NCBI GenBank assembly: GCA_003022125.1
Contig: PXQH01000042.1
Location: forward strand, 1 to 64,000
DNA: 64,000 nt
Direction of reading: 5' to 3'
Origin: Cyanobacteria bacterium QS_8_64_29
GTDB lineage: Bacteria; Cyanobacteriota; Cyanobacteriia; Cyanobacteriales; Rubidibacteraceae
In this document: piece after piece, positions 14,777-63,803 of the stretch
How positions within the stretch are numbered: position 1 is the first letter of the stretch
Layout of the letters: each line of letters opens with the position of its first letter
Position numbers and translations under genes: made by a program
The notes under the pieces: model-generated
What the model saw: the letters and a program-made list of their open reading frames with translations, nothing else
What the model was told of the DNA's origin: nothing
Database searches by the model: none

Positions 14777-16207
14777 TTACCACAGCTCGCCAAAGCCCTT
14801 TTTCTTTTTCTTCTTTTTCTTTTTGGGTTTGGCGCTAGGCTGCGGTGCTGCCCCTTGACCGCCGCCCAACAGGTTGCCCATATTGCCCATCCCGGGCAGG
14901 TTGGGCGCATTGCCCTGCCCCATTTGCTGCATCATCCCGCGCATTTTGGTGAAATCACCGATTAGCTTGCTGATGTCGGTTTCTTTCTGCCCCGAACCGT
15001 TGGCCACGCGGCGGCGGCGGCTGGGCGATTGCGCCAGCAGATCCGGATCCGAGCGCTCCTCGGGCGTCATGGAGTTAATGGCGGCTTCGGTGCGCTTGAG
15101 CTGTACCTTCCCCTTTTCCAGATCGTCGCCGCTGAGCTTGTTCATGCCCGGGATTAGCTTCATGATGCTGCCGAACGAGCCCATGTTTTTCAGCAGCCGC
15201 ATTTGCTTGAGAAAGTCGTTGAAATCGAACCGGGCCTCGAGCATTTTGGCCTGCATCTGCTCGGCATCGGCCATGTCGATTTCTTCCTGGGCCCGCTCCA
15301 CTAGCGAGACCACATCGCCCATGCCCAGGATGCGCGAGGCCATGCGGTCTGGGTGAAAGGGCTGCAAGGGCTCGACCTTCTCGCCGGTGCCGGCAAACTT
15401 GATCGGCTGCCCCGAAACGTGGCGCACCGACAGCGCCGCCCCGCCGCGGCTGTCGCCATCGAGCTTGGTCAGGATGTTGCCGGTGATGCCAACGTGCTCG
15501 TGAAACGTCCGGGCCAGATTGGCAGCTTCCTGGCCCGTCATGGCATCGACCACCAGCAGGACTTCGTGCGGCGAGACGGCCTCTTCAATGCGCGCCAGCT
15601 CGGCCATCATGTCGTCATCGATTTGCTGGCGCCCGGCCGTATCGATGATGGCGGTATCGATGCCCTGCTCGCGGGCCCGCTCGATCCCCTCGCGGGCGAC
15701 CTCGACCGGATCGGCGTCCGTGCCCTTTTCAAAAACCGGAACCTCGGTCTGCTGCCCCAGCGTGACGAGCTGATCTACCGCAGCCGGCCGGTAGACGTCA
15801 GTTGCAATCATGAGGGCGCTGCGCTGCTCTTTGCGCAGGTGTAAGGCCAGCTTGGCCGAGGCCGTGGTCTTGCCGCTGCCTTGCAAGCCGGCCATCAGCA
15901 CGATCATGGGCGAGGTCTCGGCCTGGGCCAGGGGGACGTGGGTCTCCCCCATAATGCGCGCCAGCTCGTCGTTGACGATTTTGATGAACTGTTGCTCGGG
16001 GCTAACGCCCGAAATTACCTCAGCGCCCTGCGCTTTCTGCTCGATGTCGCTGACGACCGCTTTGACTACCTCGTAGTTGACATCGGCTGCTAGCAGGGCG
16101 CGCCGCACCTCCCGCAGGGCATCCTGGATGTTGGAAGCAGAGATTTTGTCCTGGCCGCGAACTGTTTTCCAGGCTTGCTCCAACCGTTCGGAGAGGGCTT
16201 CAAACAT
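14777..16207 (-). CDS. ffh: Ffh, signal recognition particle GTPase (SRP54)
   Basis: Ffh binds signal sequences and 4.5S RNA and docks with FtsY to deliver membrane proteins. The 476 residues contain the N domain, the G domain with P-loop GLQGSGKTT, DTAGR and TKLDGD, and the methionine-rich M domain (MRGMMQQMGQG...MGNMGNLLGG). The C-terminus is an uninterrupted run of about nine lysines followed by GFGELW. An FtsY partner is encoded at 55672-57162. No SRP RNA gene is seen in the window. The start ATG 16207 is divergent from gifA. Confidence 0.97.
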   Translation of the reverse strand: MFEALSERLEQAWKTVRGQDKISASNIQDALREVRRALLAADVNYEVVKAVVSDIEQKAQGAEVISGVSPEQQFIKIVNDELARIMGETHVPLAQAETSPMIVLMAGLQGSGKTTASAKLALHLRKEQRSALMIATDVYRPAAVDQLVTLGQQTEVPVFEKGTDADPVEVAREGIERAREQGIDTAIIDTAGRQQIDDDMMAELARIEEAVSPHEVLLVVDAMTGQEAANLARTFHEHVGITGNILTKLDGDSRGGAALSVRHVSGQPIKFAGTGEKVEPLQPFHPDRMASRILGMGDVVSLVERAQEEIDMADAEQMQAKMLEARFDFNDFLKQMRLLKNMGSFGSIMKLIPGMNKLSGDDLEKGKVQLKRTEAAINSMTPEERSDPDLLAQSPSRRRRVANGSGQKETDISKLIGDFTKMRGMMQQMGQGNAPNLPGMGNMGNLLGGGQGAAPQPSAKPKKKKKKKKKGFGELW

Positions 16208-16362: not shown

Positions 16363-16402
16363 GTGACAACAGATACAAAAAAATTTTGCTAATATAAGTA
16401 AT
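16363..16402 (+). promoter_or_regulatory. Putative gifA promoter with an NtcA-like box over the -35 region
   Basis: An extended -10 (tgctaatat, hexamer 16390-16395) stands in an unusually AT-rich patch. The palindrome half-sites gtg-N8-tac at 16363-16376 match the NtcA consensus GTA-N8-TAC in five of six bases. The box ends 13 nt before the -10, so a bound NtcA would occupy the -35 region, a position expected for repression. NtcA repression of gif genes is known in Synechocystis; the site here is inferred. Confidence 0.6.
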
Positions 16403-16429
16403 ACAAAGCCAGATAGGCTAGCTGGCGCA

Positions 16430-16445
16430 ACGGTCGAATGATCGT
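16430..16445 (+). promoter_or_regulatory. Small hairpin next to the gifA ribosome-binding site
   Basis: The arms acggtc (16430-16435) and gatcgt (16440-16445) pair with one G-U around a gaat tetraloop. The stem ends one base before a strong Shine-Dalgarno (aaggagg, 16447-16453), 9 nt before the ATG. A control role is possible but unproven, and the stem is short. Confidence 0.35.
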
Positions 16446-16462
16446 CAAGGAGGTCGGTAACC

Positions 16463-16657
16463 ATGGCTGCAGAACAGCAAGCACGCGCGCTCATGATGCG
16501 CCACCACCGCTGGATCAAAAACCGCCAGCAGGCCATGTTGGGACGGACGGCATCCGAAATTGGGATGGATGCAACCCGCTACTGGAACCACATCCAGGGC
16601 AAGCCCCATCCCACCTTCCGCAAGTCTTATGATCGCAGCGGCGCCGCCTCGAGCTAA
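16463..16657 (+). CDS. gifA: GifA (IF7), glutamine synthetase inactivating factor
   Basis: IF7 binds type I glutamine synthetase and inactivates it when ammonium is plentiful. The 64-residue basic protein matches the roughly 65-residue IF7 family: EQQARALMMRHH, IKNRQQAML, RTASEIG, YWNHIQGKP, SYDRS. Arg8, Arg21 and Arg28, the positions reported as essential for binding GlnA in Synechocystis IF7, are all present at identical numbers. A strong RBS precedes ATG 16463. The promoter carries a near-perfect NtcA box and the gene ends at a strong terminator. Its target GlnA is encoded at 62298-63722. The assignment rests on recalled family sequence. Confidence 0.83.
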   Translation: MAAEQQARALMMRHHRWIKNRQQAMLGRTASEIGMDATRYWNHIQGKPHPTFRKSYDRSGAASS

Positions 16658-16705
16658 GCAGCTCCCCTGTCGGTGTCGGCTAAAATCAATAGCGCTCCTG
16701 TCGCC

Positions 16706-16739
16706 GGGTATCCTTCAGCGAAGGATACCCGATTGTTTT
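16706..16739 (+). terminator. Rho-independent terminator after gifA
   Basis: A perfect 10-bp stem (gggtatcctt, 16706-16715, with aaggataccc, 16721-16730) encloses a five-base loop (cagcg). A T-rich stretch (gattgtttt) follows immediately. It lies 48 bp after the gifA stop and just before rsmB, separating the two transcripts. Confidence 0.8.
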
Positions 16740-16746
16740 GGGCGCC

Positions 16747-18123
16747 ATGGCCGCAGCCCGCCAAGCCGCGCTTGCCGCGCTACGCCAGTTCTACCGGCAA
16801 GGGGCCTATGCCGACGTCGCCCTCGATCGCGCGCTGTCGCGGCAGGCCGAGCAGGACGGCCCCATGCCGCGCGCCGATAGTGGCTTTGCGGCCGAGCTGA
16901 CCTACGGCACCATCCGCCGCAAGCGCACGCTCGATGCGCTCATCGATTGCCTGGGTCGCAAGCCAGCCCACCAGCAACCGCTGGCGCTGCGCATGGTCTT
17001 GCAGTTGGGGTTGTACCAGCTGCGCTACCTGCCCCACATCCCCGAGGCCGCTGCCGTCCATACCAGCGTCGAGCTGGCCAAGGCTAACCGCTTGCGCCGG
17101 CTGGCCTCGGTAGTCAACGGCATGCTGCGGCAGTACGCGCGCCAGGCTGCCAGCGGTACTGATCCGCTGCCGCTACCCAGCGACCCAACGCAGCGCTTGG
17201 GCATCGCTTACAGCTTGCCTGATTGGATCGTCGCCACCTGGCAGCAGCAGCTCGATGCAGCCGAAACCGAGCGCCTGTGTGCCTGGTGCAATCAGCCCCC
17301 GGTGGTTGACTTGCGGATCAACCCGCTGCAAACCAGCCGCGATCACGCGCTAGCTGCGGTTGCAGCCGGTTTGCCGGCTGGCAGCAATTGCGAGTACGTG
17401 AGTGCTCTCCCCCAGGCCCTGCGCTTGCAGGGTGGGGCCGGATCGCTGCAGGCCCTGCCCGGCTACCGCGAGGGCTGGTGGAGCGTCCAGGACAGCAGTG
17501 CCCAGTTGGTGGGTCACCTGCTGGCACCGCAACCGGGCGAGATGGTCGTTGATGCCTGCGCCGCCCCCGGCGGCAAAAGCACGCACATCGCCGAGCTCAT
17601 GGGCGATTGCGGGACAGTCTGGGCCTGCGATCACGACCCCCGTCGGTTGCAGAAAGTGCGGCAGAACGCGCAGCGCCTGCGGCTGCAGGCGGTTCGCACG
17701 CAAGCAGGCGACGTGCGCGCGCTCTCGCAATTCCAAACCAGCGCCGATCGAGTGCTGCTCGATGCCCCCTGCTCGGGGCTAGGAACCCTCCACCGGCGCC
17801 CCGACCTACGCTGGCGGCAAACGCCAGCTCGGGCGGCCGAGCTAGCAGCGCTGCAGCGCGAGCTGCTCGCGCACGCGGCTGCCTGGGTCAAGCCCGGTGG
17901 CGTTTTGGTCTATGCTACCTGTACCCTTAACAGCAGCGAAAATGGGGAGGTCGTGCGCGCGTTTCTACAGGCCCATCCCGAGTGGCGGATCCAGCCGCCA
18001 TCCGCGCACTCGCCGGCGGCCCCGTTTGCCGACCCCTGGGGGCCGATCGCCATTTGGCCCACGCGCCACCAGATGGACGGGTTTTTCATGGTCCGCTTGC
18101 AGCGCGCATCGCCGCCTAGCTAG
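16747..18123 (+). CDS. rsmB: RsmB (Sun) 16S rRNA m5C967 methyltransferase
   Basis: RsmB methylates C967 of 16S rRNA. The 458-residue protein has an N-terminal NusB-like RNA-binding domain (about 1-140) and a C-terminal SAM-dependent methyltransferase domain with DACAAPGGKSTH, the catalytic motif IV LDAPCSGLGTLHRRPD and motif VI YATCTLN (second Cys). ATG 16747 is chosen over an upstream in-frame TTG at 16738, which would overlap the T-tract of the gifA terminator. The gene is followed by the SDR gene 9 bp later. Confidence 0.95.
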   Translation: MAAARQAALAALRQFYRQGAYADVALDRALSRQAEQDGPMPRADSGFAAELTYGTIRRKRTLDALIDCLGRKPAHQQPLALRMVLQLGLYQLRYLPHIPEAAAVHTSVELAKANRLRRLASVVNGMLRQYARQAASGTDPLPLPSDPTQRLGIAYSLPDWIVATWQQQLDAAETERLCAWCNQPPVVDLRINPLQTSRDHALAAVAAGLPAGSNCEYVSALPQALRLQGGAGSLQALPGYREGWWSVQDSSAQLVGHLLAPQPGEMVVDACAAPGGKSTHIAELMGDCGTVWACDHDPRRLQKVRQNAQRLRLQAVRTQAGDVRALSQFQTSADRVLLDAPCSGLGTLHRRPDLRWRQTPARAAELAALQRELLAHAAAWVKPGGVLVYATCTLNSSENGEVVRAFLQAHPEWRIQPPSAHSPAAPFADPWGPIAIWPTRHQMDGFFMVRLQRASPPS

Positions 18124-60366: not shown

Positions 60367-60798
60367 ATGGCACTTAACAAGCCGCTAAAAGCACTGCTAC
60401 TGGGCTCGGTCGCCGTCAGCTTGGCTGGGGCAGGTGCCGCACACGCAGGTCCGAATGCGCCTGATACTCAGTTCCCGAGCGAGACCTACACGCCAGGCTC
60501 GGGGAGCAGCATCAACACTGACTCCACTCGGGGCTCTGGCGAGCAATTCCCGAGCGATACTTACACGCCGGAGTCGGGAAGCAATGGTAACGGTGAGGGC
60601 AACTTCGGTGAGGACCGCCTCACGCCGGGATCGGGGGGCAACAACAACGCCGACTTCGAGAACCCCCACGACGTGGAGCGGCAAAACCAGGGGAGTCGTT
60701 CCTCTTCTGGGCCCTCTGATACCAATTTGAGCGGCGGATGCACGCTTGCCAAACAACATGACTCCCATATTAAGGTAGTTCCGGAGATCGGAATCTAG
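60367..60798 (+). CDS. Secreted repeat protein of unknown function
   Basis: This 143-residue protein has a clear signal peptide (hydrophobic core about 8-22, cleavage likely at AHA-GP, residue 27). The mature part carries three related units, QFPSETYTPGSGS (35-47), QFPSDTYTPESGS (60-72) and NFGEDRLTPGSGG (79-91), in a Gly/Ser/Asn/Thr-rich chain. One Cys occurs (residue 125). ATG 60367 has a good RBS (aggagg). The TAG stop at 60796-60798 is followed in frame by 31 more sense codons to a TAA at 60892-60894. I do not recognise a family; both flanking genes are unrelated. Confidence 0.65.
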   Translation: MALNKPLKALLLGSVAVSLAGAGAAHAGPNAPDTQFPSETYTPGSGSSINTDSTRGSGEQFPSDTYTPESGSNGNGEGNFGEDRLTPGSGGNNNADFENPHDVERQNQGSRSSSGPSDTNLSGGCTLAKQHDSHIKVVPEIGI

Positions 60799-60890
60799 TG
60801 CACAAGCCACGAGAATTGGTATGACAACGCGGTCAATAACGGTGCACTTCCAATCGATGCATCCAATAACGCGGATCTCGGTTACAGGTT

Positions 60891-62297: not shown

Positions 62298-63722
<1,425 letters not shown>

Positions 63723-63761: not shown

Positions 63762-63803
63762 ATCCTATGGATAGGGCAATTCCACGTTTGTATCGCTTGT
63801 TAC
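63762..63803 (-). promoter_or_regulatory. NtcA-activated promoter of glnA
   Basis: On the minus strand gta-N8-tac (palindromic, plus strand 63790-63803) is followed after exactly 22 nt by taggat (plus 63762-63767), which fits the -10 pattern TAN3T of class II NtcA promoters. The predicted TSS lies about 7 nt downstream of the -10, leaving a leader of about 30 nt before ATG 63722. NtcA activates glnA under nitrogen limitation in cyanobacteria. Confidence 0.88.

Follow-up and report, generated by a model that had tools for sequence, protein, structure and literature searches.

The gifA locus of this cyanobacterium raises the question of whether its glutamine synthetase (GS) inactivating factor is controlled by NtcA in the manner known from model strains, and whether a short hairpin beside the ribosome-binding site adds control at the level of translation. 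We analysed the gene, its promoter, its leader and its terminator within the window (the whole 64-kb stretch of DNA under analysis), together with the host genome and the gifA genes of relatives. Feature coordinates are collected in Table 1.

Table 1. Features of the gifA and glnA loci in the window.
Feature	Position	Strand	Remarks
NtcA box GTG-N8-TAC, repressor position over the -35	16363-16376	+	sequence GTGACAACAGATAC; orthologous boxes in relatives
Extended -10, TGC-TAATAT	16387-16395	+	13 nt past the box
Hairpin ACGGTC-GAAT-GATCGT, 6-bp stem, GAAT loop	16430-16445	+	1 nt before the Shine-Dalgarno
Shine-Dalgarno AAGGAGG	16447-16453	+	9 nt before ATG; AGGAGG conserved in the family alignment
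gifA, IF7A-type glutamine synthetase inactivating factor, 64 aa	16463-16657	+	NCBIfam NF052599 match
Intrinsic terminator behind gifA, GGGTATCCTTC-AGC-GAAGGATACCC then T-rich tail	16705-16739	+	12-bp stem
glnA, type I glutamine synthetase, expected IF7 target	62304-63704	-	TIGR00653, 693 bits
Canonical NtcA activator promoter of glnA, GTAACAAGCGATAC-N22-TAGGAT	63762-63803	-	class-II layout

The original prediction of a gifA product of 64 residues with arginines at positions 8, 21 and 28 was confirmed as an open reading frame (product sequence MAAEQQARALMMRHHRWIKNRQQAMLGRTASEIGMDATRYWNHIQGKPHPTFRKSYDRSGAASS). In a profile search the protein matched the NCBIfam equivalog NF052599 (GS_inact_IF7A) over positions 1-66 of 66 with 115.3 bits (E 1.1e-33; cut-off 70 bits), and it was the only IF7A gene in the 2.22-Mb host genome. 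Arg8, Arg21 and Arg28, which are presumably the essential IF7 arginines, were invariant in 141/141 distinct full-length IF7 sequences collected; in the same set Arg13 and Arg58 were nearly invariant and Arg16, Arg39 and Arg53 varied. The small IF7 of Synechocystis sp. PCC 6803 likewise has three conserved arginines, which are essential for GS binding (PMC6316151). A sequence search for solved IF7 structures gave no match. The gene is flanked by ffh (14777-16207, minus strand) on one side and an rsmB-like methyltransferase gene (16738-18123, plus strand) on the other. Tandem gifA copies were seen in several relatives (L045, L036, L010, L037, L041), some of them truncated or lacking the NtcA box.

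The proposed promoter, a gtg-N8-tac element over the -35 that ends 13 nt before an extended -10, matched in its coordinates, with the TAATAT hexamer at 16390-16395 preceded by TGC at 16387-16389. No TTGACA-like hexamer was found at the gifA promoter, and a -35 element at 17-bp spacing would fall at 16367-16372, within the NtcA box. Transcription is predicted to start near 16400-16402. The pattern GTR-N8-TAC-N11-14-TANNNT occurred once on both strands of the window, at gifA. When the 255-bp intergenic region was dinucleotide-shuffled, such a box with its -10 (N11-14) appeared in 0.11% of cases, and a box together with an extended -10 in 0/20,000. A second, activating NtcA site was not present in this 255-bp region upstream of gifA, which in this respect differs from Anabaena (Nostoc) sp. 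PCC 7120 with its second upstream site.

Any doubt that the gifA box had arisen by chance was removed by its conservation in relatives. A GTN8TAC-type box was found upstream of 114/141 gifA-type genes; the pattern was missing from the other 27, and the box is thus a common rather than a universal feature. The gap from the box to the first TANNNT was mostly 12 nt (65 genes) and was 13 nt in nine. The 66 promoters fitting a strict pattern, which leave out the window promoter, had ATTTTGTA-N8-TACAGAATT-N-TnTGnTATAnT in common, with TACA invariant and the next GAA present in 63-65 of the 66. In the relatives of the same family (Halothece and others; L011, L013, L014, L016, L019, L024, L028, L029) the box and extended -10 could be aligned base by base with those of the window, which lay in register. 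IF7 identity to the window protein was 73-81% (four of the eight members aligned). The window protein differs from these relatives in a 2-residue deletion mid-protein, and the UTR sequences are unrelated. Comparative footprinting thus shows the gifA box to be a real footprint, shared in position by most relatives, and its assignment as an NtcA repressor site is further backed by the NtcA gene of the host and by a glnA gene with an NtcA activator site.

The window promoter departs from these relatives in three points: GTG for GTA in the half-site, AAAA for the AGAA of their TACAGAA, and a spacer longer by one base, the relatives carrying TGn-TATAnT 12 nt past the box. Immediately after GTAN8TAC, the gifA promoters of relatives such as L011, L013 and L014 carry an AGAA (mostly AGAATT) that is nearly invariant and goes beyond the usual NtcA consensus. 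Given the GTG half-site, the AAAA and the 13-nt gap, NtcA binding or repression could be weaker in the window. Taken further, the box may have decayed so that gifA is weakly or no longer repressed by NtcA and is either constitutive or under another regulator, for example RpaA or a dark response. The 114 boxes comprised 109 with GTA, three with GTT, one with GTC and a single GTG, that of the window, and the G that follows TACA in the relatives has been lost here; in addition, darkness strongly induces gifA in Synechococcus elongatus (PMC6091082). However, the box keeps five of the six defining NtcA bases, the box-internal ACAACAGA (identical in relative L013) and its extended -10 in a window of 65% GC, and the host encodes NtcA (profile search, 352 bits against a cut-off of 245) with an intact recognition helix, IGSTRVTVTRLLGELR. 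The GTG half-site itself appears to be tolerated in vivo, since the Anabaena region with the strongest NtcA ChIP-seq signal contains GTGN8TAC (PMC3898017). We therefore regard a decayed box as quite unlikely and gifA under NtcA repression as the preferred reading.

The counterpart of this repression lies in the same window, where glnA was the single TIGR00653 match of the host genome. The class-II layout of its NtcA site also precedes glnA in three family members. The gifA box and the glnA activator site thus bring together in one window the two halves of the classical circuit that regulates these genes in opposite directions (PMC6316151, PMC11288750). That NtcA represses gifA has been established for both Synechocystis and Anabaena, whose boxes over or near the core promoter are centred at -30.5 and -28.5, respectively; the Synechocystis box represses under nitrogen limitation, and the Anabaena repressor box lies near the -10 (PMC6316151). 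In an ntcA mutant, gifA expression is constitutive (PMC11288750). The window gifA is for this reason a further example of a known system. Like the window, Anabaena has a single IF7-type factor.

The terminator behind gifA was strongly folded (-18.6 kcal/mol, z -6.5), so a gifA mRNA of about 340 nt is predicted. In Anabaena the major gifA transcript is short and stops soon after the gene (PMC11288750). A Nostoc-type glnA antisense from gifA read-through was excluded here because gifA and glnA, which differ from the Anabaena arrangement, are ~46 kb apart and not tail to tail, with the strong terminator behind gifA lying between them. The terminator also lies directly against the beginning of the rsmB-like gene (16705-16750), so a promoter between the two would put that hairpin in the rsmB-like leader.

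Elsewhere in the window, a MITE-like repeat of ~104 bp with inverted ends (TACCAATTTGAGC...GCACAAGCCACGAGAATTGGTA) was observed at 60719-60822. Its end sequence was found at 77 places in the 2.2-Mb host genome (≤2 mismatches) compared to 0 for a reversed control, and several copies of the repeat were clustered in L065.

Two regulatory arms that accompany gifA in other strains were not found. The glutamine riboswitch (RF01739) was detected neither in the host genome nor in the gifA leader, and IF17 was absent from the host genome, whereas most Halothece-type relatives have both; their absence from the host genome, together with the GTG half-site, also sets the window apart from Synechocystis. 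The one DUF4278 protein of the host was considered as an IF17 and rejected, as it lacks the IF7-like C-terminal part. The host genome measures 2.22 Mb, is called 99.95% complete and compares to 2.8-4.8 Mb for its family. A small genome without IF17 and the glutamine riboswitch suggests a reduced nitrogen-regulation set. Post-transcriptional control could potentially also come from an NsiR4-like sRNA that base-pairs at the Shine-Dalgarno of the gifA leader. Control of this kind is known from Synechocystis, and at least 38 cyanobacterial genomes have been reported to carry an NsiR4 homologue (PMC6316151). Such pairing would be compatible with NtcA repression and would add to it. The perfect GTA-N8-TAC-N19-25-TANNNT sites of the host genome, however, were accounted for by glnA, by repeats or by positions within long open frames. 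A scan for NtcA activator sites in the host genome and three relatives returned glnA, an aminotransferase-like gene and other genes, and no sRNA candidate was found behind such sites in these four genomes, an indirect way of looking for NsiR4. Control of this gifA by an NsiR4-like sRNA is considered unlikely.

The hairpin abutting the Shine-Dalgarno exists as drawn in the original prediction, but the translational control suggested for it did not rise beyond chance. Its stability was about -5.3 kcal/mol (shuffle p about 0.03-0.05), a value equalled or surpassed by stems at ~14% of positions drawn at random from the window (65% GC). The Shine-Dalgarno itself stays outside the hairpin. The fold of the gifA 5'UTR compared to shuffles gave z -1.45 (64 nt) and +0.53 (99 nt), neither the leader nor the hairpin sequence was conserved in the family alignment, and an Rfam search of the 5'UTR returned no riboswitch match, the only hit being irrelevant (E 4.4). 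The hairpin is therefore at chance level and not convincingly more.

Across 102 gifA leaders there was no general excess of Shine-Dalgarno-adjacent stems, and the hairpin as a general feature of gifA was ruled out (about 1-3/93 outside the family). Stems ending within 6 nt of the Shine-Dalgarno with a shuffle p ≤ 0.05 were found in 4/9 family members compared to 1/93 others, and this excess was absent 7-20 nt further upstream. We take this as a hint at most because the comparison was post hoc, the family members share ancestry and, of the four significant stems, two are very weak (about -1 to -1.5 kcal/mol). On the strength of the family stems, and in a host genome lacking the RF01739 riboswitch and the IF17 gene, it could be argued that the hairpin, or pairing of GAUC (16440-16443) with GGUC (16452-16455), makes gifA translation conditional and perhaps replaces the missing arm. 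Beyond the post-hoc nature of the test, the sequences of the stems are unrelated, and the frequency of equally stable stems, the UTR z-scores and the Rfam result all count against it, which leaves conditional translation very improbable. Still more far-fetched is a new nitrogen-dependent translational switch formed by the stem next to the ribosome-binding site of gifA, of which the position and not the sequence would be common to a few relatives.

We consider the window gene an ordinary gifA that is repressed by NtcA under nitrogen limitation and expressed on ammonium, with IF7 inactivating GS (probability about 0.9). The direction of regulation, the binding of NtcA and the inactivation of GS are those expected by analogy with published homologues. 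Under nitrogen limitation (high 2-oxoglutarate), NtcA on its box over the -35 would block RNA polymerase at the extended -10 and would meanwhile activate glnA from its upstream site. When ammonium is added NtcA would be released, a monocistronic gifA mRNA running from about 16402 to 16739 would be made and IF7 would accumulate, binding and inactivating glutamine synthetase probably through its three invariant arginines.

The gene is an ordinary gifA in a system already known, though its half-site is slightly unusual, and the case adds little beyond what a specialist would expect. In wider terms it confirms that a deeply conserved promoter module underlies NtcA repression of the GS inactivating factor. 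One more genome can now be placed in this module, in which the AGAA behind GTAN8TAC is a possible determinant of repression.
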